Shown here: piece after piece, positions 16,363 to 43,354 of the stretch
Numbering within the stretch: the first letter of the stretch is position 1
How the letters are laid out: each line of letters starts with the position of its first letter
NCBI GenBank assembly: GCA_018262975.1
Contig: JADFDG010000017.1
Location: 1 to 64,000 of the forward strand
From: Gammaproteobacteria bacterium
GTDB taxonomy: Bacteria > Pseudomonadota > Gammaproteobacteria > Pseudomonadales > JADFDG01
Reading direction: 5' to 3'
Length of the DNA: 64,000 nt
Translations under genes and position numbers: made by a program
The notes under the pieces: model-generated
Databases searched by the model: none
The model's input: the letters and a program-made list of their open reading frames with translations, nothing else
Told to the model about the DNA's origin: nothing

Positions 16363-16788
16363 ATGACCCGGCGCATCCCCCTGCTACCCCTCGTCTACTC
16401 CTGCAGCGGCTGCTCGAACGTGGCGCAACTGGCCAATCGTGTCGCGGTGGCGATGGACCGCGAGGGAGTGGCGGAGATGTCCTGCATCGCCGGCGTGGGC
16501 GCCGGCATCGCACCGCTGGTGAAGGTGGCCCGCAGCGGCCGGCGCATCATCGCCATCGATGGTTGCCACCTGCACTGCGTCACCGCCAGTCTGGCCCGGG
16601 TGGGCGTGGCGGCGGACACGCACGTGGTGCTGTCGGAGCACGGGCTGCGCAAGCGTTACGGCAAGGACTGCGACGACGCCGACTATGCGCTCGCGCGCGC
16701 CGCGGTGGACATGGCGGCAGGGTTGCCAACGGCAGAGGAAACTAGCGGGTTTCCTGAATTTGATCGCGATCAAACGAACGCGCAATGA
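16363..16788 (+). CDS. DGC-domain putative zinc-binding protein
   Basis: A 141-residue cytoplasmic protein with conserved cysteines: YSCSGCSNVAQLANRV at the N-terminus, MSCIAGVG near residue 45, and IIAIDGCHLHC (the D-G-C signature) near residue 70. These match the DGC family, described only as putative zinc-binding. It is 9 bp after nrdG and likely co-transcribed with the nrdD genes. Its function is unknown; the position suggests a link to anaerobic metabolism. An FNR box for the next operon lies inside its last codons. Confidence 0.8.
   Translation: MTRRIPLLPLVYSCSGCSNVAQLANRVAVAMDREGVAEMSCIAGVGAGIAPLVKVARSGRRIIAIDGCHLHCVTASLARVGVAADTHVVLSEHGLRKRYGKDCDDADYALARAAVDMAAGLPTAEETSGFPEFDRDQTNAQ
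16760..16773. promoter_or_regulatory. FNR/ANR-type box upstream of the SCP2/UbiB-like operon
   Basis: TTGAT-CGCG-ATCAA, a perfect match in all ten half-site bases and the best FNR box in the window. It lies within the last codons of the DGC gene and is centred 115 bp before the SCP2 gene; a -41.5 position gives a transcript start near 16808. Confidence 0.8.
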
Positions 16789-16881
16789 AGGGCGCGCCAG
16801 CGCCCGCCACCCGCCATTACGCTTGGGATGAATCGCCCGCCGCCATGCCGGCCGCGCGCAGACAACCCGGGAGATCACACC

Positions 16882-17292
16882 ATGGCGCTGCAATTCCTCA
16901 GCAAGGAGTGGTTCGAGCAGGTGATGGCGCTGCGTGCGGAGGCGGAAGCCCTGCTCGGGGCGGAAGGAATCCCCGCGGACGTGCGCGAAGTCAGGCTCAA
17001 CATCACCGTGCCGCATGCCGCCGGTGAACACCACTTCGCGGTGAAGGACGGTGATGCACAGATCGGCCACATTGACGATGCACACACGCGCCTGACCGTG
17101 GATTACGACGTGGCGCGCCGGCTGATCATCGAGGGCGACCCGTCGGCAGGCGTGCAGGCTTTCATGGCCGGACAGATCCGCGTCGATGGCGACCTGTCGA
17201 AGCTGCTGGTGCTGCAGCAGCACATGACCGCGCCGCAGACTCCGGAGCAACGGGCGCTGCGCCAGAAGGTCGTCGACTTCACCTCGTTCTGA
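16882..17292 (+). CDS. SCP2 sterol-carrier-domain protein
   Basis: A 136-residue cytoplasmic protein that is essentially one SCP2 domain (hydrophobic lipid-binding fold): TRLTVDYDVARRLIIEGDPSAG, then AFMAGQIRVDGDLSKLL, the family's hallmark. It has no membrane segment. The start MALQFL follows GGGAG by 8 nt. It is first of an operon with an ABC1/UbiB-like kinase, a pairing like UbiJ (SCP2) with UbiB in ubiquinone synthesis. UbiT, the anaerobic SCP2 protein, is at 34769-35281, so this is a second SCP2 protein under likely FNR control. Confidence 0.85.
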   Translation: MALQFLSKEWFEQVMALRAEAEALLGAEGIPADVREVRLNITVPHAAGEHHFAVKDGDAQIGHIDDAHTRLTVDYDVARRLIIEGDPSAGVQAFMAGQIRVDGDLSKLLVLQQHMTAPQTPEQRALRQKVVDFTSF

Positions 17293-17301
17293 GCCGCCGC
17301 C

Positions 17302-18600
17302 ATGACCGCAGTCGCCGCACATCTCCGTGGTGGGGCCCGGGCCGCCGGACGGCTGGTGAATGGCCGGGACCGCTACCTGCGCGCCATGCGGGTGTCGGTC
17401 GAGGTGCGCCGCTCATACGCCGCGTTGCGTCACGCCACACGCCGCCTTCCCGACGACGAGGCGCGCACGGCTGCCCTGCAGGCACTGCACGCGAAGAACG
17501 CGCGCAGGGTCACTGCCCTGTGCCGACGCAACGGGGCTACCTGGATCAAGCTGGCCCAGGTGATGAGTTGCCGTCCGGACCTGCTGCCGCGCGCCTACAT
17601 CAACGAGTTGCGCACGCTGCAGAATGATGCGCGGCCGGTACCTTTCGACGCACTGGTACCGGTGCTGGAGGCGGAACTCGGCGCGCAGTGGCGCAGCCAC
17701 TTCCTGCACATCGACCCGGTGCCGGCGGCCACCGCCTCCATCGCCCAGGTGCATCGAGCGCGCACGGTACGCGGCGACGACGTGGCCATCAAGATCCAGT
17801 TACCCGACGTCGGGCGGCTGTTCCGCCAGGACTTCGTGTTCTTCACGCTGATCGCCCACGCCGTCGCGCCGTTTGCCCGCCAGCTGGACATCAAGCTGAT
17901 CGCCCGCCAATTGCTCGAAATGACCCGCGGTGAGCTGGATTTCACCCGCGAGGCCGCCAACCTCGAGCGCTTCGCCGCCCATCCGCACAGCGAGCGCATC
18001 TGTTTCCCCACCCTGTACCGTGAATATTCCACGCCGCGGGTGCTGGTGACCGGCTGGGTCGAAGGGAAGCGGCTGCGCGAATTCCTCGACGAGCACCACG
18101 ACCTGGCGCGCGACCTGCTCACCACCCTGCTCGACAGCTACATTCAGCAGATCACCCGCTTCGGCGTATACCACGCCGATCCCCACCCGGGAAATTTCAT
18201 AATCAACGATGCCGGGCAGATCACCATCCTCGACTTCGGTGCGCTCGGCAGCCTGTCGATGGCCGAGGCCATGAACTACGGGGCGCTGCTGCTGGCACTG
18301 TTCCGTCGCGACGGCCAGGACCTGCACGCGGCATTCACCCGCGCGGGCTTCAGCGGACTCGACGAGACAACGTTCCGCGACCTGTCGAAGATCTTCCTGG
18401 GCGTGAAAGGCGACGACTACACCGACGTGCTGGCGCAGGCCATGGACACCCTGCAACAGCACCGCATCACCATCCCGGAGTCGTTCGTGTCGCTGGCGCG
18501 CGTGCTGGTGACCATCGGCGGCTTCATGCAGACCTATCGCGTCAAGGTCAACCTCGACCAGGCCTTGCTCGCCCACGTCATGACGGGAGCCAGGCCATGA
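17302..18600 (+). CDS. ABC1/UbiB-family atypical kinase-like protein
   Basis: A 432-residue member of the ABC1/ADCK/UbiB family. Visible: the KxGQ-type motif region NGATWIKLAQVMSCRPDLLP (here KLAQ, with Ala in place of the usually invariant Gly), the Ala-rich loop PAATASIAQVHRA, catalytic HADPHPGNF and the DFG segment ILDFGALG. No clear C-terminal membrane segment, unlike UbiB. It starts 9 bp after the SCP2 gene and overlaps the next by ATGA. Family members act as ATPases or chaperones in coenzyme Q synthesis and other isoprenoid-lipid roles. An anaerobic UbiB-like role is inferred from the FNR box and the SCP2 partner; sequestration or kinase activity on another lipid is possible. Confidence 0.88.
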   Translation: MTAVAAHLRGGARAAGRLVNGRDRYLRAMRVSVEVRRSYAALRHATRRLPDDEARTAALQALHAKNARRVTALCRRNGATWIKLAQVMSCRPDLLPRAYINELRTLQNDARPVPFDALVPVLEAELGAQWRSHFLHIDPVPAATASIAQVHRARTVRGDDVAIKIQLPDVGRLFRQDFVFFTLIAHAVAPFARQLDIKLIARQLLEMTRGELDFTREAANLERFAAHPHSERICFPTLYREYSTPRVLVTGWVEGKRLREFLDEHHDLARDLLTTLLDSYIQQITRFGVYHADPHPGNFIINDAGQITILDFGALGSLSMAEAMNYGALLLALFRRDGQDLHAAFTRAGFSGLDETTFRDLSKIFLGVKGDDYTDVLAQAMDTLQQHRITIPESFVSLARVLVTIGGFMQTYRVKVNLDQALLAHVMTGARP

Positions 18601-19340
18601 CCATCGCCAGCGCATCCGGGCACTGGATCGGCATTCCCGCCAGCCCGCGACTGGGCAACGACGTGGACCGCCTGGTCGAGGCCATGGCCGACCGCGTGCC
18701 GCAACCGCAGGGCGCTCTGATGATCGACGTGCTCAAGCGCTTCCTCGACGAGGCCATCGACACGCTGGTCACTGGCCTGTGCGACGCCGTGCAGTTGCAG
18801 GGCGTGGGCCGCAAGACGGTGGACATCACCGTCGCCACGGTGCGCGGCACCTGCCACATGCTGGCCGGCCGGGTGCTGCACGGCATGCGCAACGACGAAC
18901 TACGCGACCTCGCCGGGCACATGGACGACCTGCGCCTGCGCCTGCCGGCGCGCGACGGGGTTGCCGGCGACTACACCGTGGTGCCGGTCAGCCCGGCGCT
19001 GCTGGCGGAGATCCGCCGCCTGCACGCCATCGTGCACGCGGAATCGCCGCGCCCGCACATGGCGGACATCCAGGCCATGCTCGAGCAGTTCATGGATGCG
19101 GTGGTCGAGCATTTCTACGTGCGCACCATGGCCACGCTGCGCCTGGGTCCCATCGCCCGCAAGGTGGTGAGCATGGGCTACAGGACCGTGCACTCCGGCG
19201 TGCACGGCCTGATCCAGCGCGTGGTGCCGCAACTGTCCGACGAGCAGGTACGCAACGCCTCGGATTTCATCCTCGACCTGATCATCGATGCGCACGGAAA
19301 CCGCGTGCGCCACACCACGCCGGAAACGGCGTCTGCCTGA
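18597..19340 (+). CDS. Uncharacterised helical protein, family member A
   Basis: A 247-residue protein with no recognised domain, mostly predicted helix, no signal peptide, and only moderately hydrophobic. By eye it is a paralogue of the protein at 35321-35995: KTVDITVATVRGTCHMLAG aligns with KIVDFAVDTGSKASSMLTA, and LGPIARKVVSMGYRTVHSG with IGFITRKALDVSIAGTRSA, in the same order and spacing. Both sit next to an SCP2-type and a Ubi-related gene. It overlaps the ABC1 gene by ATGA and is followed after 31 bp by the CrtI-like gene. Confidence 0.75.
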   Translation: MTIASASGHWIGIPASPRLGNDVDRLVEAMADRVPQPQGALMIDVLKRFLDEAIDTLVTGLCDAVQLQGVGRKTVDITVATVRGTCHMLAGRVLHGMRNDELRDLAGHMDDLRLRLPARDGVAGDYTVVPVSPALLAEIRRLHAIVHAESPRPHMADIQAMLEQFMDAVVEHFYVRTMATLRLGPIARKVVSMGYRTVHSGVHGLIQRVVPQLSDEQVRNASDFILDLIIDAHGNRVRHTTPETASA

Positions 19341-19371
19341 GTTTCCAGGCACCGACCCGGGAGCAGCCTCC

Positions 19372-20886
19372 GTGAACAAACATGCACTCGAAATACCGCA
19401 ATGGGACGTGGTGGTCATCGGCACCGGCATGGGCGGTTCCGCGGCCGGCGCCATCTGCGCGCTCAATGGCCTGAGGACACTGGTGCTGGAAAAGAACCCG
19501 CGACCCGGTGGCGCCTGCTCGTACTACGAGAAGGAAGGCTTCCAGATGGACTGCGGCACCCACCTGTTCATCCGTGGCAACAAGGGACCGTTCGGCAAGC
19601 TCACCCGCCGGCTGGGCATGGGCACGCCGCTGGAGTTCCGCCATACGAAGAACACCGTGCACCTGAAGGGCATGGGCATGGACGTGAAGGTGCCGCGCAG
19701 CCTCGGCGGGCAGCTGGCCATCCTGCCCAAGGCACTGGTGCAGTCCGGCATCTCGCCGATGCAGTACCCGGGCATCTACCGGCTCGTGCGCGACCTGATG
19801 AACAAGAAGCCGCACGAGATCGACGCGCTGAACCACATCACCGTCGAGGAGTACATGCTCAGCTTCACCGACAACGAGGAAATCCGCGCGATGTTCGGCC
19901 TGTTGCTCGGGCTGATGTTCATCCTGCCGCCGTGGGAGGCCTCCGCCGGCGAATCGATCTGGAACCTGCAGAAACTCATCAAGGAAGCCAACCTCGGCTA
20001 CCCGAAAGGTGGCGCCGTGGCCATCCCGAAGGCCTTCCTCAAGGGCGCGGAGATGCACGGCGCGCAGGTGCGCATGAAGGCCGGCGTCAAGCAGATCGAG
20101 GTGGAGAACGGCCAGGTGAAGGCCGTGGTACTGCGCGGCGGCGAGCGCATCACCACGCGCGCGGTGATCAGCACCACCAGCGTGTTCGACACGGTGCACA
20201 ACCTGGTGGGCCAGCAGCACTTCCCGGCACCCTACGTGGAACGCACCACGGCCATCAAGCCGTCGTGGACGGCGGTACAGGCCAAGATTGCCGTGCGCAA
20301 GCCGGTGATCGATGCCGGCTCACTGGTCGGCGGCACGCCGCTGAAGCTCGATTCGAAATTCTCCGACCAGTTCCTGCGTGACTCGATCGGTTCGCTGGAG
20401 CGCGGCGAGTTCAGCAACATGGTGCCGATCTACGCGCCGGTGCCGTCGAATTACGATCCCGCGCTGTGTCCGCCCGGTTGCCAGCTGATCACCGCGGTGG
20501 CAGTCGCGCCGACGCTGGACATCGAACTGAAGGACGGCGAGCAGCGCTGGATCGACGGCATGATGGACTCGATGTACCAACTGGTGCCGGAGCTGAAGGA
20601 GAACATCCTGTTCTACGACACCTGGTCGGTAAAGACGCTGGCTGCGTGGATCGGCAAGAGCAACGGCTCGGCGATCACCACCAGCCAGACGCCGGACCAG
20701 GTGGGCCTGAAGCGGCCGGCGCACAACACGCCGGTGAAGGGCCTGTACATTGCCGGCGACTGCGGCGGACACGCGCGTGGCGTGGGCACCGAGCTGGCCT
20801 GCCAGAGCGGCATGGACTGCGCCGACCAGGTGACCAGCGACATGCACAACTACGTGCTGGGCGACGCGATCCTGCGCGCCGGTTGA
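19372..20886 (+). CDS. CrtI-like FAD-dependent oxidoreductase
   Basis: A 504-residue flavoprotein of the phytoene desaturase/carotenoid isomerase family. It has the N-terminal dinucleotide motif VVVIGTGMGGSAAGA, the second motif ALNGLRTLVLEKNPRPGGACS, and the C-terminal FAD motif GLYIAGDCGGHARGVGTE. The proposed GTG start is preceded by GGGAG at 8 nt and falls after the stop of the previous gene; the reading frame is open further upstream but overlaps it. Fourth gene of the SCP2-ABC1-unknown operon. Substrates in the family are polyprenyl compounds; retinol saturase-like and terpene dehydrogenases also belong here, so the exact reaction is open. Confidence 0.85.
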   Translation: MNKHALEIPQWDVVVIGTGMGGSAAGAICALNGLRTLVLEKNPRPGGACSYYEKEGFQMDCGTHLFIRGNKGPFGKLTRRLGMGTPLEFRHTKNTVHLKGMGMDVKVPRSLGGQLAILPKALVQSGISPMQYPGIYRLVRDLMNKKPHEIDALNHITVEEYMLSFTDNEEIRAMFGLLLGLMFILPPWEASAGESIWNLQKLIKEANLGYPKGGAVAIPKAFLKGAEMHGAQVRMKAGVKQIEVENGQVKAVVLRGGERITTRAVISTTSVFDTVHNLVGQQHFPAPYVERTTAIKPSWTAVQAKIAVRKPVIDAGSLVGGTPLKLDSKFSDQFLRDSIGSLERGEFSNMVPIYAPVPSNYDPALCPPGCQLITAVAVAPTLDIELKDGEQRWIDGMMDSMYQLVPELKENILFYDTWSVKTLAAWIGKSNGSAITTSQTPDQVGLKRPAHNTPVKGLYIAGDCGGHARGVGTELACQSGMDCADQVTSDMHNYVLGDAILRAG

Positions 20887-20902
20887 CCAGGCCGGGGCAG
20901 TT

Positions 20903-20924
20903 GCCGGACCCCTGCGGGTCCGGC
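20903..20924. terminator. Bidirectional terminator-like hairpin between convergent genes
   Basis: A perfect 9-bp stem GCCGGACCC / GGGTCCGGC with loop CTGC, in the 47-bp gap between the convergent CrtI-like and CruF-like genes. No clear T tract on either side. Confidence 0.55.
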
Positions 20925-20933
20925 ACCGCGCCC

Positions 20934-21800
20934 TCAGGACTTGCCGGCCGCGATCCTGGCCATGAACACGCGCGTCCAGCCGAACAGCACCACCGGCCCC
21001 ATCACGAAGCAGCCCACGAAGGCGGCCTGGTAGAAGGCCGGGTTGACCGACGCCCAGTGCAGGTTCGCGTACACCGCGTTGCAGAACCAGGCGGTGTAGA
21101 GCGCCGTGGCAGTCAGCGTGGCCGACGCGGTGGGCAGCGTGGGCGACTTCTCGTCGGTGAACACGAACCGGTAAAGCACGCTGATCATGAACACCGCGCC
21201 GACCCAGCCGGTGAGGCCGAAGTTGCTGAAGGGAATGCCGCCGTGGATGTCCGGCACATAGCCGCCACCGTTGTCCCACTTCCAGAAGCCGTTGTTCACC
21301 GACACCGGGTCGGCCAGGAAGTCCCAGGCCGTGACCACCAGGCCGGTGGCCAGCGACGCCAGCAGGATGTGCACCAGGTGCTGGCCGCGCGACACGGCGC
21401 CCTTTCGTCCGATCAGTTCGTCGACGAGGATCATCGACGGATAGATGACGCCTTCCCAGGAGATAACCACCATGATCGGCACGTTGCCGATGCGCGGACC
21501 CAGCTCGTCGGTGTACTCGTAGTCACCGAACCACCAGCCGTAGTTGCAGCCGATGTACTCGACGAACCAGGCAATGACCGCGGCGACCGCGACGAAGCCG
21601 AGCGCCTTGCGGTAACCCTTGGTGGCGATGGCGTGCAGGATGCAGATGGACACGATCAGCAGCACGCCGAACACCGCACCGGGCGTGCCCAGGTCCGTGG
21701 TGCCGGCCACCGGAATCAGCGCCAGCGACAGTACCGCCATCGCGCAGACGACCAGTGAGGCCTTCATGCTTAAGGATTCGAGTTTGGGCATTTCGCTCAT
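20934..21800 (-). CDS. Carotenoid biosynthesis (CruF-like) membrane protein
   Basis: A 288-residue inner-membrane protein with about seven hydrophobic segments, resembling the carotenoid-biosynthesis family that includes CruF/carotenoid 1,2-hydratases of non-phototrophs: WFVEYIGCNYGWWFGDYEY, GNVPIMVVISWEGVIYPSM and AWDFLADPVSVNNGFWKWD, with conserved Glu and Asp in membrane segments. GAGGAAAC lies before the ATG. It follows the molybdoenzyme beta gene (21856-22872) by 55 bp on the same strand, so it is probably the last gene of that operon, and it faces the CrtI-like gene. The pairing of a desaturase-like and a hydratase-like protein suggests an isoprenoid substrate. Confidence 0.8.
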   Translation of the reverse strand: MSEMPKLESLSMKASLVVCAMAVLSLALIPVAGTTDLGTPGAVFGVLLIVSICILHAIATKGYRKALGFVAVAAVIAWFVEYIGCNYGWWFGDYEYTDELGPRIGNVPIMVVISWEGVIYPSMILVDELIGRKGAVSRGQHLVHILLASLATGLVVTAWDFLADPVSVNNGFWKWDNGGGYVPDIHGGIPFSNFGLTGWVGAVFMISVLYRFVFTDEKSPTLPTASATLTATALYTAWFCNAVYANLHWASVNPAFYQAAFVGCFVMGPVVLFGWTRVFMARIAAGKS

Positions 21801-21855: not shown

Positions 21856-22872
21856 TCAGACATGCTTGCCGAATTCCTCTTCCGCTGGCAGTTTCCACGC
21901 CTCGTTGAACGTGTAGCGGATCAGTTCGTCCATGATCTCGCTGGGCTCACCGCGCGCCTTCTTCGCCCGCTCGGCGTTGAGCGTCGCCATCACCTGCTCG
22001 ACCTCCTCGCCGAACAGCTCCTTGAGGTAGTCCATGGGGATGCGCTGCTGCCCATTGGGCGTGCCGTCGGCATTGAAGCCGGTGGCGGAGAACGGCGGTA
22101 CGTAGAAGACGTTCGGCTGGGTGCCCTTCTCCGCATACAGCGGCAAGGCAATGCCGAATTTCTTCACCAGGCGGTGGGTGGGCGACTCCGGATCCTCCAG
22201 CAGGCCGAAGTGGCGCGCGCGACCGGCACAACTGCCGACACAGGCCGGCGGCAGGCCCTTCTCCACGCGCGGGAAGCACATGATGCACTTCTGGGAAATG
22301 CCCAGCTGCGGGTTGAAGTAGAGCTTCTTGTACGGGCAGGCCTCGACGCAGAAGCGATAGCCACGGCAGTTCGGCTCATCGACCAGCACGATGCCGTCAT
22401 CACGCTTGGTGATGGCGTTGCGCGGGCAGGCCTTCTTGCAGGCCGGCTCCTCGCAGTGGTTGCACAGGCGCGGCAGGTAGAAGAAATAGGAATTGGGGAA
22501 CACCCCGCCGCCTTCGTCCTCTTCCCAGTTCGGACCCCAGTCCGGCGCGTTGCCCTTTTCCGCCGTCTTCGGTGCCAGCGGCTTCTGCGGGTCGTAGCGA
22601 CCGGGCTTCAGGCTCTCCAGGTCGAACTGCCAGCGGCCGCCGCTCTCCGCGAGCATGGGAATGCGCCCCTTCAGGCCTTGCTGCGCGTACACGCCGGCAG
22701 GCGGCGTCATGTCGTGGAAGTCGCGCGGCCAGCCGCGTCCGGGCTTGGTCTCCACGTGGTTGAACCAGGTGGCTTCCTGCCCTTCGTTGGAAGTCCATTG
22801 GCGCTTGCACGCCACCGTGCAGGTCTGGCAACCGATGCACTTGTTCAGGTCGATGACCATCGAGAAACCCAT
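21856..22872 (-). CDS. Type II DMSO-reductase-family beta subunit (four Fe-S clusters), set 1
   Basis: A 338-residue electron-transfer subunit related to NarH, EbdB, SerB and DdhB. Four Cys motifs are visible: CIGCQTCTVACKRQW, CNHCEEPACKKACPRNAI, CRGYRFCVEACPYKK and CIMCFPRVEKGLPPACVGSC. In the last groups Trp/Tyr changes as in the 3Fe-4S site of the family cannot be judged by eye. It has no signal peptide of its own, so it should be exported with the Tat-tagged alpha subunit. It is 11 bp downstream of alpha 1 with GAGGAG as ribosome site. It should pass electrons between the Mo site and the haem gamma subunit. Confidence 0.92.
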   Translation of the reverse strand: MGFSMVIDLNKCIGCQTCTVACKRQWTSNEGQEATWFNHVETKPGRGWPRDFHDMTPPAGVYAQQGLKGRIPMLAESGGRWQFDLESLKPGRYDPQKPLAPKTAEKGNAPDWGPNWEEDEGGGVFPNSYFFYLPRLCNHCEEPACKKACPRNAITKRDDGIVLVDEPNCRGYRFCVEACPYKKLYFNPQLGISQKCIMCFPRVEKGLPPACVGSCAGRARHFGLLEDPESPTHRLVKKFGIALPLYAEKGTQPNVFYVPPFSATGFNADGTPNGQQRIPMDYLKELFGEEVEQVMATLNAERAKKARGEPSEIMDELIRYTFNEAWKLPAEEEFGKHV

Positions 22873-22883: not shown

Positions 22884-25883
22884 TCAGGCAGTGATCTTGC
22901 GAAGCGACACGCGGGTATCGCGCGGCGCATGGCCCGGCTGCGCACCCGCCAGCCGGTAGTTGAGCTGGGCATAGTCACCGACCATGTGCAGCGGCTTGAT
23001 CGGCGAGCCGTACAGCGTCTTGTCGGAGACACCGTTGCGGAACTGCCAGGGCTGCCAGGCGTGGTACATCAGCACGGTGCCCGGGCGCATCGCCGCGGCG
23101 ACCTTGGCCTGGCACTGGCAGGAGCCGAACTCGTTGTACATCTCGATGGTTTCGCCGTTGGCGATGTCCAGCCGCCGTGCGTCCTCGACCGACACCCACA
23201 GCACGGGCTCGCCGCGCTGCAGGCGCAGCATGGTCGGGCTCTCGCGCCACTGCGAGTGGATGGACCAGCGCGTGTGGCCGCCGGACAGGTAGAACTGCTG
23301 CTGGTTGCCGGCCAGGGCCGGCGACGGCTTGTAGGTCGGGTGTGCCTCGTCGGACTCCACGTACCAGGGATGGTCGATATAGAACTGCATGCGACCGGTG
23401 GCCGTGGGGTAGCGCTTGTGGTCGCGGATGAACCAGATGTGCGGCGTGATGGTCTTGCCTTCCTCCATCTCGCTGCCCACGGCGTTGATCGCCGAGTACT
23501 TGCCGGTGGAACGGATCTTCACCGCGCCCTCGCGACGCAGCTGTGCCAGCGTGGTGTTGTCGCCGAAGGCCTCCTTCAGCGCCCGGCCCAGTCCATGCTC
23601 GCGCAGCATCGACATGAAATACGGGTTGGAGATGGCCGATACGGTGAGCAGGAAGTCGTACGCCTTTTCCTTGCCCTCGTCGGTGGGCGGGAACTTGTCG
23701 TTGTAGGACCACTGCTTGTAGAGCGTGGACAGGTCCTTGCGGCGGCCGAACAGGTCGGTGAACTCGGTCTTGCCCTTGGCGATCGCGCGCTCGGTGATCT
23801 TCTTCGCCAGTTCGCCCATCATGATGAACTCGCACTTGCTCTCGCCCTGCGGTTCGATGGCCTTGTCGTTGATGATCAGGTAGGGAATGTAGGTGGAGCA
23901 GTACTTGATGCCGAGCTTCTCGTACCACCCGGCCGACGGCAGCAGGATATCGGCGTGCAGGGAGGTGTAGTTGAGCTGCGGCGTGACACCGACCACGAGG
24001 TCGATCTTCGACCACAGGCCCTTCTCGATGGCATCGTGGCGCCACAGGCGGCGCAGCGGGTTGGATCCGGTGAAGATGAAAACGCTGGGGATCTCCGCAT
24101 GCGTCATGTGCGGGATGTTCTTGTAGCCCTCGGACTGGAGGGCCTCGTTCATGTACTCGGCGAGGCGACGCGGGTAGGTGCGGTCCTCGACCTGGGCCAT
24201 GGTCTGCTGCCAGTCCGGCTCCAGCATGTAGTAGAACGGTATGGCCGGCACCGCGGCGATGCGCATCGCCTGCGACATGTTCTCCAGGAATACCGGGTCC
24301 TCGGTGGAAACGTTCATCATCGCGCGCAGCAGCGTCTCGTTGGTGTCGAGTCCGGTCGCCTCGAGCACCGAAATGAAGCGCTGCACACCCTTGAATTCCT
24401 CGCCGACCGTTTCGGCCTGGCCGTAGGACACCACCGGCCAGCCTTCCGGCGTGTACCAACCGGCGACGCGGTAGCCGCCACCGGGCTTGCCGTGCGAACC
24501 GGCCAGCGCGCACATGAGGATCTTCAGGCGTTGTTCCAGGTCGCAGTGATAGCCCTTGCCTGCACCCCAGCTCGCGTAGATCATCGGCGACTTCGCGTTT
24601 GCAAAGTCACGCGCGAACTTGCGGATGGTCTCCGGGTTGACCTTCGTCTCGCCGGCCACCATTTCCGGCGCCCACTTCTGCACGCGCTCGACCAGCACGT
24701 TCCAGTTGGTGCGCACATTGATCTTCCTGCCGTCGGCGAGCGTGACCTCGTAGCGGCCGTCGAGCGCGACATCCACGTCGTCCGGCAGCTTGGTAACCTC
24801 GGCATCGTGGTCCCAGCAGCCGGGCATCTCGAAGGGCGCGTTGGCCTTGCGGTCCCAGGCGTAGTAACGGAACTTTCCCTTCGCCGATGGATGGATGTCC
24901 TGCACCTTCAGGAAGTGACCGTTGTCCTCACGGATCAGGAACGGCAGGTCGGTGTACTGGCGGACGTAGTCTTCCTTGTACAGCTTCTCGTTGATGATGA
25001 CGTGCACGGCGGCCATGGCCACCGCGGCGTCGGTGCGCGGCTCGACCGGGATCCACAGGTCCGCCTTGCTGGCGGTGGCCGAGAAGTCCGGCGACAGGCA
25101 CACCAGTTGCGCGCCGTTGTAGCGCGCCTCGGTCATGAAGTGCGCGTCGGGGATGCGCGAGTACACCGGGTTGCCCATCCACACCACGATGTAGTCGGAG
25201 TGGAACCAGTCGTCGCTGGAGCCCTCGATGTTCTGCATGCCGAGCGTCTGGATGGCGCCCATCATCTCGTCGCCGACCAGCCCCCAGGAGTCGAGCTCCG
25301 TGGTGGACAGCAGCGTGAACAGCCGCGACTCCCACATCTGGTCCGGGCCGAAATCCAGGTTGGTGGTGCCGTGGTCATAGACGATTTTCTGCGGCTTGTT
25401 CTCCGCCAGCGTGTCGACAATGCGGTCGGCGATGGTGGTGTAGGCCTCGTCCCAGCTGATGCGCTCCCAGCGGCCGGAACCGCGCGGCCCGACGCGCTTC
25501 ATCGGATGCAGTACGCGCAACGGTGAATAGGTCTGCTCGGAGTAGCAGGCGCCCTTCTGGCAGCCGCGCGGGTTGAAGTCGGGTACGCCTTCTTCCTGCG
25601 ACTCATAGACGCGGTTCTGCTCCTCGCGCCAGATGATGCCGTCGCGCACGTAGATATCCCAGCTGCATGCCGACATGCAGTTGGAACGCCCGTGGCTGGC
25701 CTTGACGATGCGGTCCCAGCGCCACTGGCGCCGGTAGATTTCCTCCACCGACAGGAACTGCGGTGGCTCGGGCATGTCCGCGGCCAGGGCGGCATTCGCA
25801 CGCAGGAAGCCGTTGGGTGCCAGGGCCGCGGCGACGAAGCCGGCCGAGGACGCCTTGAGGAAATCACGCCGGTTGAGGGTCAT
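22884..25883 (-). CDS. Type II DMSO-reductase-family molybdenum alpha subunit, set 1
   Basis: A 999-residue periplasmic molybdoenzyme with a Tat signal (NRRDFLKASSAGFVAAALA). The FS0 cluster motif is H-x4-C-x3-C (HGRSNCMSACSWDIYVRDG, His64). The likely Mo-ligating Asp is in GLVGDEMMGAIQTLG, which aligns with Asp222 of NarG. Length and motifs place it with ethylbenzene dehydrogenase, steroid C25 dehydrogenase, dimethylsulfide dehydrogenase and selenate/chlorate reductases rather than NarG. The start MTLNRRDF is chosen for GGAGG 8 nt upstream. It is 58 bp downstream of gamma 2 and followed by beta 1. The substrate is not deducible by eye. Confidence 0.92.
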   Translation of the reverse strand: MTLNRRDFLKASSAGFVAAALAPNGFLRANAALAADMPEPPQFLSVEEIYRRQWRWDRIVKASHGRSNCMSACSWDIYVRDGIIWREEQNRVYESQEEGVPDFNPRGCQKGACYSEQTYSPLRVLHPMKRVGPRGSGRWERISWDEAYTTIADRIVDTLAENKPQKIVYDHGTTNLDFGPDQMWESRLFTLLSTTELDSWGLVGDEMMGAIQTLGMQNIEGSSDDWFHSDYIVVWMGNPVYSRIPDAHFMTEARYNGAQLVCLSPDFSATASKADLWIPVEPRTDAAVAMAAVHVIINEKLYKEDYVRQYTDLPFLIREDNGHFLKVQDIHPSAKGKFRYYAWDRKANAPFEMPGCWDHDAEVTKLPDDVDVALDGRYEVTLADGRKINVRTNWNVLVERVQKWAPEMVAGETKVNPETIRKFARDFANAKSPMIYASWGAGKGYHCDLEQRLKILMCALAGSHGKPGGGYRVAGWYTPEGWPVVSYGQAETVGEEFKGVQRFISVLEATGLDTNETLLRAMMNVSTEDPVFLENMSQAMRIAAVPAIPFYYMLEPDWQQTMAQVEDRTYPRRLAEYMNEALQSEGYKNIPHMTHAEIPSVFIFTGSNPLRRLWRHDAIEKGLWSKIDLVVGVTPQLNYTSLHADILLPSAGWYEKLGIKYCSTYIPYLIINDKAIEPQGESKCEFIMMGELAKKITERAIAKGKTEFTDLFGRRKDLSTLYKQWSYNDKFPPTDEGKEKAYDFLLTVSAISNPYFMSMLREHGLGRALKEAFGDNTTLAQLRREGAVKIRSTGKYSAINAVGSEMEEGKTITPHIWFIRDHKRYPTATGRMQFYIDHPWYVESDEAHPTYKPSPALAGNQQQFYLSGGHTRWSIHSQWRESPTMLRLQRGEPVLWVSVEDARRLDIANGETIEMYNEFGSCQCQAKVAAAMRPGTVLMYHAWQPWQFRNGVSDKTLYGSPIKPLHMVGDYAQLNYRLAGAQPGHAPRDTRVSLRKITA

Positions 25884-25941
25884 CGTGTCTGCCTCCGGCA
25901 GCGCCCGCACGGCGCCGCCCGTTGTGTTGTTGTGTGGGGTG

Positions 25942-26484
25942 TCAGAGGTTGATCCAGCCGGGTGTCACCGACTTCAGGCCGGCGCGCTCGGACTGCGCGC
26001 CCTGCCAGACGGCAAAGCCCAGCTGTCGCGTCACGGTGAGCGCGGCAAACGCCGGCAAGGTGAAGGTGAGTTGCCACGTGCCGTTGGCGTAACGGGCCGC
26101 GGTGGTCCAGCCTGCCGGCGCCTCGGCGCGCTGCACGCTGCCGAGGCCCTGCGCAGACACCCGCCAGGGCTGCGCCCGATCGGCACGCCACAGCACGCCT
26201 TCCAGCGGCATGTCCGGCGTGCCCATGGAGATCCACGGCGCGTCCTTCACGGTGGGGGCGAACAGCGCCGCGCCGTCGATGAACTGGCGCGGGTTGTCGG
26301 TGGCATCGATCACCGCCTGCGGGGCACGCCAGCGCAGCGCCACGGTCCAGCCCGCGGTGCTCTCCTGCACCTCGAGGTCGGCGCGCGAGGTGCCCGGCTG
26401 CGAGCGATCCGCGTAGGCGGTGGCGATGTACCCACCGGGTTGCATGGCGGTGGGCGGCGCGATCAGGGTGACGGTCGTCTTCAT
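25942..26484 (-). CDS. Haem b gamma subunit of type II DMSO-reductase-family enzyme, set 2
   Basis: A 180-residue protein of the ethylbenzene-dehydrogenase-related haem-binding family: beta-rich, with segments GWTVALRWRAPQAV and WISMGTPDMPLEGVLW (candidate Met haem ligand) and the C-terminal SERAGLKSVTPGWINL that is nearly repeated in the other gamma at 31241. No signal peptide, as expected for export with the alpha subunit. Its ATG lies 1 bp after the beta 2 stop; the ribosome site GGGAGG is inside beta 2. Confidence 0.85.
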   Translation of the reverse strand: MKTTVTLIAPPTAMQPGGYIATAYADRSQPGTSRADLEVQESTAGWTVALRWRAPQAVIDATDNPRQFIDGAALFAPTVKDAPWISMGTPDMPLEGVLWRADRAQPWRVSAQGLGSVQRAEAPAGWTTAARYANGTWQLTFTLPAFAALTVTRQLGFAVWQGAQSERAGLKSVTPGWINL

Positions 26485-26485
26485 G

Positions 26486-27493
26486 TCAGATCACCTCCCG
26501 GGTGCGCGCGTCGTCGAGGGCAAAGTTCTTCGACCAGTCGTAGGCAATCAGCAAGTCCATCACCGCACTGCCTTCGCCACGCGTCGTCTTCTCGCGCTCG
26601 GCGGCCAGGCGCGCCATGGCGTCATGCACGGCCGGGCCGAACAACGATTCGAGGTAGGCCGGCGGGATGCGCGGCTTGCCGGTGGGGCGACCCTCGTCGT
26701 CGATGCCTTCCGGCGACAGCGGCGGCACGTAGTACACGTTCGGACCGGTACCGAACTCCGGGTGCAGCGGGATGGCGACCTTGTATTCGTTCACCAGCTT
26801 GTGGATGGGACCGGCAGGGTCGTCGAGGAAGCCGACGAAGCGCAGGCGACCCGGGCACTGGCGTGCGCAGGCCGGCGCCACGCCCTCTTCGATGCGCGGC
26901 AGGCAGAAGATGCACTTGGTCGACACCTGGCGCTTGGGATCGAAATAGACTTTCTTGTACGGGCAGGCCTCGACGCAGAAACGGTAGCCGTGGCACTGGT
27001 CCTGGTTGACCAGCACGATGCCGTTGTCACTGCGCTTCTCGATGGCACCGCGCGGGCAGGCATCGAGGCAAGCCGGATGCGTGCAGTGGTTGCACAGGCG
27101 CGGCAGGTAGAAGTAGTGGTTCTCCTGCGGGTAGGCGCCGGCGCCGTGGTCCTCGTCCCAGTTCGGGCCCCACTGCGTACCGCTCTCGGGCTTCAGCCAT
27201 TCGCGCGGACCATTGGACTTGAAGAAGGTCTTGTCGTGGTTGAATTTCCACGCCCTGCCGTAGTCCGCATCGAGCGACGGAATTTCGCCGCGCTTGACGG
27301 AGCCGTCGGCGTTGCGGCCGCCTGTTTCCTGCCATAGCCGCGGAAAGCCCTTGCCGGGTGCCGTCTCCACGTTGTTCCAGTAGGCGTAGTCGGTGCCCTG
27401 GTCCTGGTTCCACAACTTCTTGCAGGCCACGGTGCAGGTCTGGCAGCCGAGGCACTTGTTGAGATCCAGCACCATCGCCAGTTGCCGGTTCAT
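26486..27493 (-). CDS. Type II DMSO-reductase-family beta subunit (four Fe-S clusters), set 2
   Basis: A 335-residue paralogue of the beta subunit at 21856-22872 with the same four Cys groups: CLGCQTCTVACKKLW, CNHCTHPACLDACPRGAI, CHGYRFCVEACPYKK and CIFCLPRIEEGVAPACARQC. It starts within the alpha 2 stop (ATGA overlap), so the two are translationally coupled. It carries electrons between the alpha 2 Mo site and the gamma 2 haem. Confidence 0.92.
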   Translation of the reverse strand: MNRQLAMVLDLNKCLGCQTCTVACKKLWNQDQGTDYAYWNNVETAPGKGFPRLWQETGGRNADGSVKRGEIPSLDADYGRAWKFNHDKTFFKSNGPREWLKPESGTQWGPNWDEDHGAGAYPQENHYFYLPRLCNHCTHPACLDACPRGAIEKRSDNGIVLVNQDQCHGYRFCVEACPYKKVYFDPKRQVSTKCIFCLPRIEEGVAPACARQCPGRLRFVGFLDDPAGPIHKLVNEYKVAIPLHPEFGTGPNVYYVPPLSPEGIDDEGRPTGKPRIPPAYLESLFGPAVHDAMARLAAEREKTTRGEGSAVMDLLIAYDWSKNFALDDARTREVI

Positions 27494-30441
27494 GCAACAC
27501 CTCCCGCGGTAGCCGCGGCCTGCTGGTCAGCGATGCGACGAATACCCACGCGCGTGTCCTGCACGGCGGATCCGGGTTCCCAGATGGCGAAGCGCCACTG
27601 CACGTGCCCTTCACCGCCGGCGAAGTGCATGGGCTTCATCAGGCCCGGTGTGATCCACTTGTAGGACTTGTGGTCCTTGAACTGGTAAGGCTCCCAGGCA
27701 TGGAAGTAATAGGCGACGCCCGGCCGCACCATGGTCGACTCCTTGACCCGCATCTGGAACGCGCCGTGGTCGTTGTGGAACTCGGCGTAGTCGCCGTCGC
27801 GGATATCCAGTCGGGTGATGTCCGACGGGTTCAGGTACATCACCGGCTCGCCGCGCTGCAGGCGCAGCATCATCGGCGTGTCGCGCCAGATGCTGTGCAC
27901 GCTCCAGCGCGCATGGCAGGACACCATCTGGAACGGGTAGTCGCCGCCCGCCTTCGGGCTGGTCTTGTACGTCGGCAGCGACTCGCCGCCGCCGACGAAC
28001 CACGGGTGGTCGATATAGAACTGCTGGCGCCCGGTGAGTGTCGGCCAGCGCCACTTGTCCTTGATGAAGTGCTGCAGCGCCTGCAACACCCCCTCGCCCT
28101 TCCATTCGGCGTTGTACAGCTGGTTCTGGTAAGCGATTGCGCCGGTCTCCGCGTACTTGGTGATGCCCGATTCCTTCAGTTCGCGCACCGAGGCACCGCC
28201 GGCGGCCGGCGAAAGGTCCAGGATGTTCTGCATGACCTTCTCGACATCGCCGGCGCCGAACTCGCGGCCGAACGAATAGCGCTCGGCAATCTGCTTGAGG
28301 TCGATCTCGCGCTTGCCGCAGCCATCGAACGGCGCCAGGTTCTTCTCGCGGGCGATCTGCTGGATGCGCTCGGCGAGCAGGAAGTAGATCTCCCACTCGT
28401 TCTTCGCCTCGCCCACCGGGCGAATGGCGGCGTCGCAGTAGTGCAGGTAAGGGACGTAGGCGACCGGGTACTTGATGCCCGGCTTCTCGTAGTAGCCGGC
28501 CGCCGGCAGTACGAAATCGGCATTCATGCCGGTGAAGGTCAGCTTGGGATTCACGTCGACCGCCAAGTCGAGGTTGGTCCACAGGTTGGCCATGAACTCG
28601 CCGGTCATGTTGGTGCGTCGCAACACGTTGTTGCCGCCGGTGAACCACGCCTTTACCTGCTTGCGAGGGTAGAGCGGCATCCAGCCCCTGGCCTGTGCCT
28701 CATTGACGTACGCTTCGGTGGGCTGCGGATACAAGTTGTCCTGGTAGGCAGCCAGCTTGTCCTTGATACCCTGATAGTTGTAGTTGATGGAGGCGCTGTT
28801 GGTGGCACAGGCCTCCTTGTCCATCAGGAGTTGCGTCTGCTCGCGCGTCACCTCCATCAGCGTCTTGCGCTTCGCCACCAGGTCGGTGGCGATGGCCCAC
28901 ATCTCGCCGGGTGAGAACGCGTGCGTCAGCAGCCCCAACAGGCCGCCGACACCGGGCTTGTCGGCTTCAGAGGCGAGGTCGAAGCCGTCGATGGAAAACC
29001 AGCCGGTGGAGTGGTAGCCGGCGCCACGCCTGCCGATGGCGCCCTTGAGCGTCAGACAGAGGATCTTGGCGCGATTCATCAGGTCCGAGTGGAAATAGCG
29101 GTTGCTGCCCCAGCTCGACAGGATCATCGGGCGCTCGGCGTTGGCGAAGCCCTCGGCCAGCCTGGTGATCATGGCCGAGTGCAGGCCGGTGATCTTCGCC
29201 GTGGCCTCCACGCTGTAAAGCGCCAGTTGCTCGCGTAACAGCGTGCCGACGGTGACCACCTGCACCGTCTTTCCATCAGCCAGTTGCACGTCCCAACCGC
29301 CTTCGAGCGCCGGGTCCAGTTCGCCCAGATGGAGCATCGGCTGATCAGTGAGGCCTTCGCTGCCCGGCGCCGGCACGCGTGCGTTGGTCTTGCGGTCGTG
29401 CACGAACATCACCGTCTCGCGCCCGCCGGCGACCATGTCGTCTTCGCGCAGGAAGCGCCCGGTGTCCAGCCGTACCAGCACCGGCAGGTCGCTCTGCTCC
29501 TGCAGGTATTTCTCGTCGTGCTTGCCGGACTCCCAGATGTGGCGGGCAATGCACAGCGCCAGCGCGGCATCGGTGCCCTGCGCCACCGGGATCCACAGGT
29601 CGGCATGCGTCGCGGTGGCGCTGTAGATCGGGTCGATCACCGCCAGCTTCGCGCCGTTGTATTTCGCCTCGTAAAGGAAGTGCGCATCAGGGATCTGCGT
29701 CACCGACGGGTTCATCATCCACACCACGAGGTAGTCCGACAGGAACCACTCGTCACTGGAGCCACCGACGTGGGGGAAGCCGAAGGTCAGCGTCGCACCG
29801 AGGTTGAGGTCGCCGATCTCCGCCCAGTCGTCGGGAATCACGCCGCCGAACTTGTTGAAGAAGCGGATGCGCCCGGCGGTGGTGGGGCCGTTGTCGAAGT
29901 GCGGACCGAGATCCTGCACCACCGAGTCGGTGCCGTACTTTTCAGCGATATCCACCATCTTGTGCGCGATCTCGTCGATCGCCTGGTCCCAGCTCACCCG
30001 CTCCCACTGGCCGCTGCCGCGCTCGCCGACGCGCTTGAGCGGCACGGTGAGGCGGCTGGGCCCGTACATGACCTCGGTGTAGCACGCACCCTTGTTGCAG
30101 CCGCGCGGGTTGAAGTCCGGTACCACGCCCGGCTCGCTGGATTCGTATTGCGCGGTCTGTTCCTCGCGCACCACCACGCCCTTCTTGACGTAGATATCCC
30201 ATTCGCAGGCGCTGCGGCAGTTCAACCAGCCGTGCGAGCCCTTGGCAACGTGGTCCCAGGTCCAGCGTTGCCGGTAGAGATCCTGCCAGTTGTCCAGCGG
30301 CGCAACCGTGCGCGGCGGGCGGCCATCACCAAGGCCCGTGCTGGCGGCTCGGCGCATGTGCCACAACGGCAGTCCGGCCGCGGCGGCGGCCACCGCGCCC
30401 ACGGCGGAAATCTTCAGGAAGGATCGACGATCGGACTTCAT
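27490..30441 (-). CDS. Type II DMSO-reductase-family molybdenum alpha subunit, set 2
   Basis: A 983-residue Tat-exported molybdoenzyme (DRRSFLKISAVGAVAAAAAG). The FS0 motif is HGWLNCRSACEWDIYVKKG, and the likely Mo ligand is Asp in AEIGDLNLGATLTFG. It is clearly homologous to alpha 1 but well diverged, so the two sets probably act on different substrates or conditions. The start MKSDRRSF is preferred over a GTG two codons earlier, with GAGG upstream. It overlaps the delta gene before it and beta 2 after it by ATGA. Confidence 0.92.
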   Translation of the reverse strand: MKSDRRSFLKISAVGAVAAAAAGLPLWHMRRAASTGLGDGRPPRTVAPLDNWQDLYRQRWTWDHVAKGSHGWLNCRSACEWDIYVKKGVVVREEQTAQYESSEPGVVPDFNPRGCNKGACYTEVMYGPSRLTVPLKRVGERGSGQWERVSWDQAIDEIAHKMVDIAEKYGTDSVVQDLGPHFDNGPTTAGRIRFFNKFGGVIPDDWAEIGDLNLGATLTFGFPHVGGSSDEWFLSDYLVVWMMNPSVTQIPDAHFLYEAKYNGAKLAVIDPIYSATATHADLWIPVAQGTDAALALCIARHIWESGKHDEKYLQEQSDLPVLVRLDTGRFLREDDMVAGGRETVMFVHDRKTNARVPAPGSEGLTDQPMLHLGELDPALEGGWDVQLADGKTVQVVTVGTLLREQLALYSVEATAKITGLHSAMITRLAEGFANAERPMILSSWGSNRYFHSDLMNRAKILCLTLKGAIGRRGAGYHSTGWFSIDGFDLASEADKPGVGGLLGLLTHAFSPGEMWAIATDLVAKRKTLMEVTREQTQLLMDKEACATNSASINYNYQGIKDKLAAYQDNLYPQPTEAYVNEAQARGWMPLYPRKQVKAWFTGGNNVLRRTNMTGEFMANLWTNLDLAVDVNPKLTFTGMNADFVLPAAGYYEKPGIKYPVAYVPYLHYCDAAIRPVGEAKNEWEIYFLLAERIQQIAREKNLAPFDGCGKREIDLKQIAERYSFGREFGAGDVEKVMQNILDLSPAAGGASVRELKESGITKYAETGAIAYQNQLYNAEWKGEGVLQALQHFIKDKWRWPTLTGRQQFYIDHPWFVGGGESLPTYKTSPKAGGDYPFQMVSCHARWSVHSIWRDTPMMLRLQRGEPVMYLNPSDITRLDIRDGDYAEFHNDHGAFQMRVKESTMVRPGVAYYFHAWEPYQFKDHKSYKWITPGLMKPMHFAGGEGHVQWRFAIWEPGSAVQDTRVGIRRIADQQAAATAGGVA

Positions 30442-31022
30442 GCGCACCTCACTGCGTCGCCAGGTTGCCGGTCGGGTGCGAGCGGGATGACGCGTTCACC
30501 ACCGACATCGGCCAGGAAGCGGTCCATGGCCTCGAACAGGTTGCGATAGACGCCGCCGGTGTCGTGGCGCGCCAGCGCACGTACGCACTGGGCGGAGAAA
30601 CTGCCCGGGTGCAGGCGTGCAAACGCGCGTAGCGCCTCGATGACGTCTGCGCGCGCCGGATACATCATCGCCACCCGCGCGAGATATGCCAGGAAAGCCA
30701 GTTCGACGCACAGGTGGTCCGGCGCGCGGTTCGCTTCCTGCACCACGCCATAGGTGCGGTAGAAGTTCACCACCCGGCGCAAGCGCGCCATGGGATCCTG
30801 GTGGTAGTGGCTTTCCAGCAAAGGCACCGGCGGCTCGGGGTTGCCGATATCGAACAAGCCGCAGTAGACGACGCGCTCGCGCGCCGCCGCGACGCCATCG
30901 GCATCGGTCAACCAGCGCGCCAAGGCCGCCGGCGCCGGCATGGGCGTGTCGGCGGGATAATCGAGCACGTGGACGAACCACTCCGCCACGCTCGCCACGT
31001 CTTCGGGAAGGACTGCCTGCAT
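30438..31022 (-). CDS. Delta subunit / TorD-NarJ-like molybdoenzyme assembly chaperone
   Basis: A 194-residue cytoplasmic helical protein matching the delta chaperone of type II DMSO-reductase-family enzymes: PVPLLESHYHQDPMARLRRVVNFYRTYG and a helical C-terminal half. It inserts the Mo cofactor and holds the alpha subunit for Tat export. The start MQAVLPED is chosen because GAGG precedes it; an upstream ATG (31034) has none. It is first gene of the operon, overlapping alpha 2 by ATGA. It is the only delta in the window and presumably serves both alpha subunits. Confidence 0.82.
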   Translation of the reverse strand: MQAVLPEDVASVAEWFVHVLDYPADTPMPAPAALARWLTDADGVAAARERVVYCGLFDIGNPEPPVPLLESHYHQDPMARLRRVVNFYRTYGVVQEANRAPDHLCVELAFLAYLARVAMMYPARADVIEALRAFARLHPGSFSAQCVRALARHDTGGVYRNLFEAMDRFLADVGGERVIPLAPDRQPGDAVRCA

Positions 31023-31095: not shown

Positions 31096-31109
31096 TTGAT
31101 AATCGTCAA
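31096..31109. promoter_or_regulatory. FNR/ANR-type box between delta and gamma 1 genes
   Basis: TTGAT-AATC-GTCAA, nine of ten half-site bases, between two divergent molybdoenzyme genes. Its centre is 80 bp from the delta ATG and 138 bp from the gamma 1 ATG. At -41.5 it would start the delta-alpha-beta-gamma transcript near 31061. Confidence 0.75.
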
Positions 31110-33894: not shown

Positions 33895-33902
33895 GGTCCG
33901 CC

Positions 33903-37113: not shown

Positions 37114-37201
37114 GTTTTCCTCCGCGTCAACCCGCTGGTACGCAGCACACCCCGTGCCCGCCAGCCACGCGCCTACTGTGGCGGAACGGGCCAGCCATCT
37201 T

Positions 37202-37215
37202 TTGACTTTGGTCAG
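37202..37215. promoter_or_regulatory. Weak FNR-like box between araC-type and acyl-CoA dehydrogenase genes
   Basis: TTGAC-TTTG-GTCAG: the right half ends in G instead of A, so this is a weaker match than the other boxes. Centred 131 bp before the fused acyl-CoA dehydrogenase ATG, within the 226-bp divergent gap. Confidence 0.35.
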
Positions 37216-37339
37216 AACGGTGGCACGCCGACCGTCCGGCCATGATGGCCGGAATGAGCAACCCGCGTGCCGCTTCGCGCATGCCCCTGGCAGGGCGACG
37301 GGTCTATGGTCGGGTCATGTCCCGACGAGGATGACCGCC

Positions 37340-40629: not shown

Positions 40630-40744
40630 TCAGGGCAACGCCTGCCTCACCAGCCGCACCGTCACCGGCGAGGCTGGCCTGCGCCGCCCGCAGACGCAGT
40701 TCGGCCCGGTACAGGTCACGCTCGGCCTGGGCGCGCAATGCCCT

Positions 40745-40772: not shown

Positions 40773-40876
40773 GTCCGCCGCACCGGCCTGCCCGGCCAGC
40801 AACCCCATGAAAGTCATGTGAAAAAAGCGTTGTATAGTCATGCGCATGATCATGCGGTGCACAACACGCCGAGCGC

Positions 40877-40890: not shown

Positions 40891-40918
40891 GGCCCGCGTG
40901 CCAGGGAGGATGACCGAG

Positions 40919-43315: not shown

Positions 43316-43354
43316 CACCAACGCGCCGCCCGTACCCGCAAACAGGACACGCCC

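Follow-up and report, generated by a model that had tools for sequence, protein, structure and literature searches.

Two convergent operons with FNR boxes in a gammaproteobacterial nitrate-respiration island and their possible role in oxygen-independent lipid oxidation

What lipid chemistry, if any, is served by an SCP2-like carrier, an ABC1 kinase and a CrtI-like flavoprotein that are encoded together behind an FNR box and opposite a CruF-like gene? To our knowledge, kinases of the ABC1/UbiB family are widespread and their small-molecule substrates largely unknown. An ABC1 gene under anaerobic control, in one operon with a lipid carrier and adjoining likely water-using C-H hydroxylases, would point to a concrete substrate class. 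We analysed the whole 64,000-nucleotide stretch of DNA that carries these genes (the window), together with the rest of the genome and its relatives.

The SCP2/ABC1 operon and its FNR box

Successive genes between 16882 and 20886 are separated by 9, -4 and 31 bp, and the SCP2-like, ABC1, helical-protein and CrtI-like genes were therefore taken as one operon (Table 1). The exact FNR box TTGATCGCGATCAA lies upstream of this operon at 16760-16773, a predicted site that matches the TTGATNNNNATCAA pattern used to define the FNR regulon. A preliminary description had reported an FNR box heading an SCP2/ABC1/flavoprotein operon that faces a CruF-like gene, and this arrangement was confirmed by the exact box, the ORFs and the profile scores. 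It correctly placed the box ahead of the operon but overlooked that the box overlaps the last codons of the DGC ORF, itself separated from nrdG by 9 bp; the SCP2 start lies about 115 bp downstream. No sigma-70-like promoter was scored at the box.

Table 1. Features of the two operons and their immediate surroundings.
Feature	Position	Strand	Evidence and remarks
DGC-domain protein, putative zinc-binding	16363..16788	+	Pfam PF08859, 114 bits; upstream of operon
FNR box, perfect, TTGATCGCGATCAA	16760..16773	.	inside 3' end of DGC ORF
SCP2-like lipid-carrier protein	16882..17292	+	PF02036, 19.2 bits, slightly below Pfam cut-off
ABC1/AarF atypical kinase	17302..18600	+	PF03109, 203 bits; not UbiB
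Uncharacterised helical protein, two similar halves	18597..19340	+	no family match
CrtI-like FAD oxidoreductase	19372..20886	+	77% identical to strain HdN1 protein
CruF-like (Caroten_synth) membrane protein	20934..21800	-	PF04240, 110 bits; last gene of Mo-enzyme operon
betaA, type II DMSO-reductase iron-sulfur subunit	21856..22872	-	TIGR03478, 426 bits
alphaA, Mo subunit, twin-arginine signal	22884..25910	-	groups with EBDH-type enzymes
gamma, heme b subunit	25942..26484	-	TIGR03477, 79 bits
betaB, iron-sulfur subunit	26486..27493	-	TIGR03478, 495 bits, over cut-off
alphaB, Mo subunit	27490..30447	-	sister of HdN1 protein (61%)
Assembly chaperone (delta) of Mo enzymes	30438..31022	-	PF02613, 54 bits; first operon gene
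FNR-like box, 1 mismatch	31096..31109	.	74 bp upstream of chaperone start at 31022
Second gamma-like (EB_dh) subunit	31241..31846	+	outside minus-strand operon

Exact TTGATNNNNATCAA sites number four in the 3.3 Mb genome, against about 0.2 expected from base composition, and the reversed pattern, used as a control, gave none. Within the window, 18 sites with at most two mismatches were found, compared with 5.5 +/- 2.3 in shuffled sequence, and sites with one mismatch precede nrdD, the molybdenum operon and the UbiU/UbiV region. The same island also carries nar, nrdDG, moa/moe, UbiU, UbiV and UbiT genes. The anaerobic control suggested earlier is thereby supported.

All 13 aligned homologues of the first operon protein matched SCP2; the protein shares 39-48% with other SCP2 proteins, and its match to UbiT extends over only 13 residues. 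The ABC1 protein has intact catalytic motifs, with KxAQ in place of KxGQ. Both are diverged second copies: typical SCP2 and ABC1 genes are found on another contig (C11), and the ABC1 copy there groups in a tree with ABC1 proteins from another family of the same order. The pair had been said to mirror UbiJ-UbiB, and here too an SCP2-type protein adjoins an ABC1 kinase. However, the proteins belong to subfamilies separate from UbiJ-UbiB and from UbiT, UbiU and UbiV. The ABC1 protein reached neither UbiB equivalog cut-off, scoring 228 and 146 bits where 487.55 and 667 are required, and BLAST gave no alignment between the SCP2-like protein and the UbiJ-like protein of the genome. The latter is encoded away from the window in a ubiE / ubiJ-like / ubiB-like locus on contig C25, so that the genome has a ubiJ-ubiB-like pair, and UbiUVT in the window, in addition to the pair studied here. 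Judged by these comparisons the SCP2/ABC1 pair does not stand in for UbiJ-UbiB and the parallel was abandoned, while the accompanying statement that this is not the known ubi set held.

The third protein has paralogues encoded on contigs C6 and C26 and at 35321-35995. Its predicted structure (pLDDT 89) gave no significant Foldseek match, and structural alignments found only generic helical-bundle or BAR-like folds (Z <=6). The profile of the family matched cytochrome c weakly and over short stretches only, and these matches were for that reason taken as chance; Pfam DUF1421 and IL28A were also rejected, their matches being isolated or below cut-off.

These genes might instead encode anaerobic isozymes, with the SCP2-ABC1 pair replacing or assisting the general copies without O2, for instance in moving membrane lipids or ubiquinone, and with an endogenous lipid being modified by the CrtI-like protein. 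The presence of typical copies on C11 beside a diverged pair with an FNR box upstream is consistent with this, as is the paralogue of the helical protein that adjoins UbiT. On the other side, both aerobic and anaerobic ubiquinone synthesis appear to be provided for by the C25 locus and UbiUVT, and the sampled relatives have no such operon; we consider the isozyme explanation unlikely.

The convergent molybdenum-enzyme operon

The CruF-like neighbour is indeed convergent and resembles the hydratase family, as first described, but that description left out the operon that it ends. The gene order is chaperone-alphaB-betaB-gamma-alphaA-betaA-CruF, encoding two molybdenum enzymes, and the genes overlap or stand at most 55 bp apart. 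As in the EBDH/S25DH branch of such enzymes, beta, gamma and chaperone genes accompany alpha. The gamma subunit of the operon resembles the one that accompanies alphaB in relatives, and the second, gamma-like protein is possibly the partner of alphaA-betaA.

In a maximum-likelihood tree that omitted S25DH, alphaA and alphaB joined EBDH (support 92/93), apart from ClrA, PcrA and NarG. The Mo-coordinating Asp (D223 of EBDH) is kept in both, within VGD/IGD. Differences from EbdABCD are nevertheless clear: the score for the EbdA equivalog, 516 bits, is far below the cut-off of 2000, and the equivalents of EBDH His192 and Lys450, two known catalytic residues, are each kept in just one alpha subunit, with neither alpha keeping both. 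Among the enzymes compared, the two are nearest to the ethylbenzene-dehydrogenase branch, and hydroxylation is their predicted activity.

Could they be respiratory reductases of chlorate, selenate or a similar acceptor, unrelated to hydroxylation? AlphaB does give a slightly better score with perchlorate reductase (491 bits) than with EBDH (461 bits), but the tree sets both alphas with EBDH and the adjoining genes are from families acting on isoprenoids, which makes respiratory reductases very unlikely. Plasmid records yielded chlorate reductases and archaeal relatives, with no close kin of alphaA, the CrtI-like or the CruF-like protein among them. Six relatives showed no consistent partner genes for the Mo enzymes.

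Carotenoid genes and linkage in relatives

Membership of the CruF-like protein in the Pfam Caroten_synth family is a likeness to carotenoid hydratases, but the protein scored 79, 59 and 54 bits against cut-offs of 154.7, 400 and 300 for the three CruF equivalogs, below each of them. The CrtI-like protein likewise fell short of the crtI_fam subfamily cut-off (107 vs 238 bits); in one deltaproteobacterial MAG, its homologue is followed by an ORF read as a candidate aldehyde:ferredoxin oxidoreductase. No phytoene/squalene synthase (SQS_PSY, PF00494) was found in the 99.95% complete genome, in a search that detected the family in 7 of the 14 genomes used as controls. Carotenoid synthesis is therefore predicted to be unlikely, in agreement with the earlier statement that this is not a carotenoid cluster. 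An unusual O2-free carotenoid or hopanoid route would account for the CrtI-like and CruF-like families being present, yet with the synthase not found and both scores below the carotenoid-specific cut-offs such biosynthesis is most improbable.

The preliminary description had named linkage in relatives as a test of its own proposal, and the result, though provisional, went against it. Wherever neighbourhoods were read among about 290 genomes of the order, none from the same family, the genes were unlinked; in lower-GC relatives they were read by tblastn and plain ORFs. The SCP2, ABC1, CrtI-like, CruF-like and Mo genes stood together in none of the other genomes examined. The main rival to a functional module is mere clustering, in which separate FNR-regulated genes have gathered in a nitrate-respiration island and the two operons serve different purposes. 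The unlinked homologues in relatives favour this, as do the unrelated anaerobic genes of the island. Inside each operon, however, genes overlap or sit a few bases apart, and the families represented point alike to lipophilic substrates, either isoprenoids or hydrocarbons; we judge mere clustering somewhat unlikely.

A possible module and its known counterparts

Our tentative proposal is that both convergent operons belong to one module under FNR control, which would oxidise a lipophilic isoprenoid or hydrocarbon without O2 while the cell respires nitrate. Starting from the observed gene content, operon structure, FNR boxes and family assignments, we infer the class of substrate, the order of steps and the joint working of the operons. 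Support comes from the FNR boxes upstream of both operons within the nar/nrdDG/moa/UbiUVT neighbourhood, from the close packing of the Mo operon with the CruF-like gene at its end, from the grouping of both alphas with EBDH, from the ORF after the CrtI-like homologue of the deltaproteobacterial MAG, and from the two pathways and the HdN1 kin described below. Besides the missing linkage elsewhere, it counts against the module that the operons, being convergent, are not co-transcribed, that neither alpha keeps both EBDH residues, and that no KstD was found. An undescribed anaerobic isoprenoid pathway had first been suggested; the two EBDH-type Mo enzymes shift the likeliest reading from isoprenoid biosynthesis to isoprenoid or hydrocarbon oxidation.

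In such a module the SCP2-like protein would carry the lipid, and the ABC1 kinase would spend ATP either on extracting it from the membrane or on phosphorylating an alcohol intermediate. Both exported Mo enzymes would use water to hydroxylate C-H bonds, the CruF-like protein may hydrate an isoprenoid double bond or dehydrate to one, and the CrtI-like flavoprotein may desaturate or oxidise allylic positions. If it works as proposed, the module would extend the range of bacterial routes known for attacking oily hydrocarbons in the absence of oxygen.

The module would work like two known pathways, here likened by description rather than by sequence. In excerpts of the published accounts, the sterol side-chain route of Sterolibacterium denitrificans runs S25DH / 25-HSK / 25-PSL / S26DH, with 25-HSK described as a phosphotransferase-family protein (PMC6016249, PMC7411048, PMC8449060). 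There, an isoprenoid side chain is oxidised by two Mo hydroxylases that act before and after a kinase step, and the dominant proteins found co-enriched with this kinase include 'phytoene dehydrogenases' (PMC7411048, PMC8449060). Similarities to this system include denitrification, Mo enzymes of the type II DMSO-reductase kind whose alpha, beta and gamma subunits come with a chaperone, a further alpha paralogue encoded alone at another locus (here on contig C24), a kinase-family gene using ATP and a phytoene-dehydrogenase-like protein. The kinase differs in being ABC1, a 25-HSK primer pattern gave no match in the one genome that it reached, and the CruF-like and SCP2 genes go without mention in those excerpts. 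Nor was a clear KstD, to be expected in steroid breakdown, found here: a genome search with one KstD/AcmB model (NF005882) gave at best 25.7 bits, at a nucleotide-binding motif, against a cut-off of 788 that no control genome exceeded either. KstD-type steroid degradation is tentatively judged unlikely, and steroids as the specific pathway were lowered accordingly on this single model. No paper connecting ABC1 and SCP2 with the breakdown of steroids or hydrocarbons turned up in a literature search.

A bolder, improbable version has ABC1 and the CruF-like protein replacing 25-HSK and 25-phosphosteroid lyase. A Mo-made tertiary alcohol would become an alkene for the second Mo hydroxylase, either through the CruF-like (de)hydratase or once ABC1 has phosphorylated it, and the ABC1 kinase would gain a catabolic small-molecule substrate.

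The second counterpart is CtmA/CtmB of Castellaniella defragrans, which oxidise a methyl group of limonene without O2. They make up two subunits and are accompanied by genes for ferredoxin and a reductase, whereas here there is one protein with none adjoining; the likeness is that of a phytoene-dehydrogenase-like FAD protein proposed for O2-independent isoprenoid oxidation (PMC4109377). Finally, the closest kin of both the CrtI-like protein and alphaB are in strain HdN1, a nitrate-dependent alkane degrader, and if the module works as proposed these proteins would bear on how HdN1 works, a question left open in its description (PMC3151549).

Gene content and FNR boxes

The four genes of the SCP2 operon are separated by 9, -4 and 31 bp in order, and the CruF-like gene faces them. 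All five exist at the coordinates in the preliminary description, as does its perfect FNR box TTGATCGCGATCAA, which sits within the final codons of the DGC ORF. The 3.3 Mb genome contains four exact boxes against about 0.2 expected (reversed control, 0); two of the other three lie around 1755 in locus L112 (contig C24) and around 9734 in L114 (contig C27). Relaxed boxes occur in the window more often than chance predicts, 18 against 5.5 in shuffled sequence.

Features of the window
Feature	Position	Strand	Remark
FNR-like box, 1 mismatch	5925		between putative narK transporter genes and sensor-kinase gene
FNR-like box, 1 mismatch	8618		upstream of moaA
FNR-like box, 1 mismatch	13148		upstream of nrdD
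nrdD, nrdG, DGC-domain gene		+	precede SCP2-like gene
Exact FNR box	16760-16773
SCP2-like	16882-17292	+
ABC1 kinase	17302-18600	+
Uncharacterised protein	18597-19340	+
CrtI-like flavoprotein	19372-20886	+
CruF-like	20934-21800	-
FNR-like box, 1 mismatch	31096		upstream of Mo operon
Second gamma-like (EB_dh) subunit	31241-31846		solitary, divergent from Mo operon
FNR-like box, 1 mismatch	31897		upstream of UbiU/UbiV region
UbiU, UbiV, UbiT	32887-35212		complete set for O2-independent ubiquinone synthesis
UbiT	34769-35212	-
Paralogue of uncharacterised protein	35321-35995	-	directly upstream of UbiT gene
Acyl-CoA dehydrogenase region	37112-47989

The whole window forms an anaerobic island, encoding NarG, two transporters that we take to be NarK, a sensor kinase and regulator taken as NarX/NarL, molybdenum-cofactor genes, nrdD/nrdG and then UbiU, UbiV and UbiT, all three exceeding equivalog cut-offs. 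The acyl-CoA dehydrogenase region holds two such genes, a 901-aa ORF (an acyl-CoA dehydrogenase part with a long additional N-terminal part), an acetoacetate-decarboxylase-like protein, an APH-type phosphotransferase and an SDR; it resembles a cluster for degrading acyl-CoAs or hydroxyacids.

The CruF-like gene is the last of a seven-gene convergent operon, absent from the preliminary description, in the order chaperone, alphaB, betaB, gamma, alphaA, betaA, CruF-like. It encodes two enzymes of the type II DMSO-reductase family. A maximum-likelihood tree, whose rows for ethylbenzene dehydrogenase (EBDH) and PcrA were retyped from HMMER alignments (PcrA minus one stretch), places alphaA and alphaB with EBDH and uncharacterised kin (support 92/93), separate from chlorate, perchlorate and nitrate reductases, and gives alphaB a protein of strain HdN1 as its sister (96/95). 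Both alphas keep the Mo-ligand Asp; of two EBDH residues with functional roles, Lys450 is kept in alphaA only and His192 in alphaB only.

Distribution in other genomes

Among about 290 genomes of the order, in which every relative sampled is from outside the source organism's family, homologues were found of CruF-like (12 genomes, the nearest two standing alone), the ABC1 subfamily (26), SCP2 (51) and CrtI-like (two at a strict cut-off, counting the source genome). In the loci read, no SCP2, uncharacterised-protein or CrtI-like homologue lay within 1.5 kb of ABC1, and likewise no operon partner stood beside SCP2. The preliminary description held that scattered, unlinked genes in relatives would tell against its proposal, and in these sampled relatives the genes are indeed unlinked wherever their neighbourhoods were read. 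The combination was seen only here among the genomes sampled.

When 84,980 named species were scanned with two peptide patterns, the only close relatives of the CrtI-like protein to emerge were a stand-alone homologue in HdN1 (77%) and two copies in a single deltaproteobacterial MAG (61-64%). An ORF resembling aldehyde:ferredoxin oxidoreductase adjoins one MAG homologue (locus L060, 2519-4492).

The uncharacterised protein is one of a family that occurs in several copies, at 18-25% identity, within the order (relatives L006-L021). As we read the alignment, it has two similar halves; it is confidently predicted (pLDDT 89) to be mainly helical, and Foldseek returned no significant PDB match. Because its paralogue adjoins UbiT and some HdN1 copies lie near acyl-CoA dehydrogenase-type genes, a role in lipid metabolism is suggested. 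UbiT is another SCP2-domain protein, and the uncharacterised protein too has an SCP2-like protein in its operon.

Ubiquinone, carotenoid and steroid metabolism

The SCP2/ABC1 pair had been likened to UbiJ-UbiB, but the SCP2 operon is probably not ubiquinone-related. The kinase carries every ABC1 catalytic motif (KxAQ replacing KxGQ) and falls far under UbiB cut-offs, and contig C25 has a ubiE/ubiJ-like/ubiB-like locus. The UbiJ-like and UbiB-like proteins of C25 score below equivalog cut-offs (58/275 and 561/667 bits), so their naming leans on gene order. Seven strong ABC1 matches (contigs C13, C5, C25, C2, C11, C8 and C26) look like many for 3.3 Mb. In a tree the window kinase is nearest to copies of one other family (genomes G021 and G062), and the C11 paralogue clusters with a different family's copies (100/99). 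The SCP2-like protein is a diverged second copy; a typical SCP2 is on C11.

No phytoene or squalene synthase was found in the genome, which bears out the earlier view that this is not a standard carotenoid cluster and makes carotenoid synthesis, judged from gene content, very unlikely. Steroid breakdown is rendered less likely by the KstD search, in which a single model gave nothing stronger than a 25.7-bit match to the nucleotide-binding motif, control genomes also all falling under the cut-off. The earlier proposal stands in part: the FNR boxes and the anaerobic island favour anaerobic control, while the likeness to UbiJ-UbiB and linkage in the sampled relatives find no support.

Comparison with oxygen-independent systems

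Collectively, the neighbourhood is real and coherent, combining known families in a way that we did not find in the other genomes sampled, and is probably under FNR control. What we observed is which genes are present, how they are arranged in operons, where FNR boxes lie and to which families the proteins belong. The best-supported reading, a tentative one, likens the neighbourhood in function to two O2-independent systems already known; the substrate, the order of steps and the joint working of the parts are inferred. In this reading SCP2 would ferry the lipid, the ABC1 kinase would spend ATP, the CruF-like protein may hydrate or dehydrate an isoprenoid terminus and the CrtI-like protein may act at allylic positions; these proposed activities are open to biochemical testing.

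Castellaniella oxidises limonene via the phytoene-dehydrogenase-like CtmAB (PMC4109377). The Sterolibacterium side-chain cascade consists of a Mo hydroxylase, kinase, lyase and second Mo hydroxylase (PMC7411048, PMC8449060). An alpha-only paralogue 69% identical to alphaA, with no adjoining beta/gamma genes (L111, contig C24, 14535-17540), recalls Sterolibacterium, whose alpha genes outnumber its beta/gamma genes.
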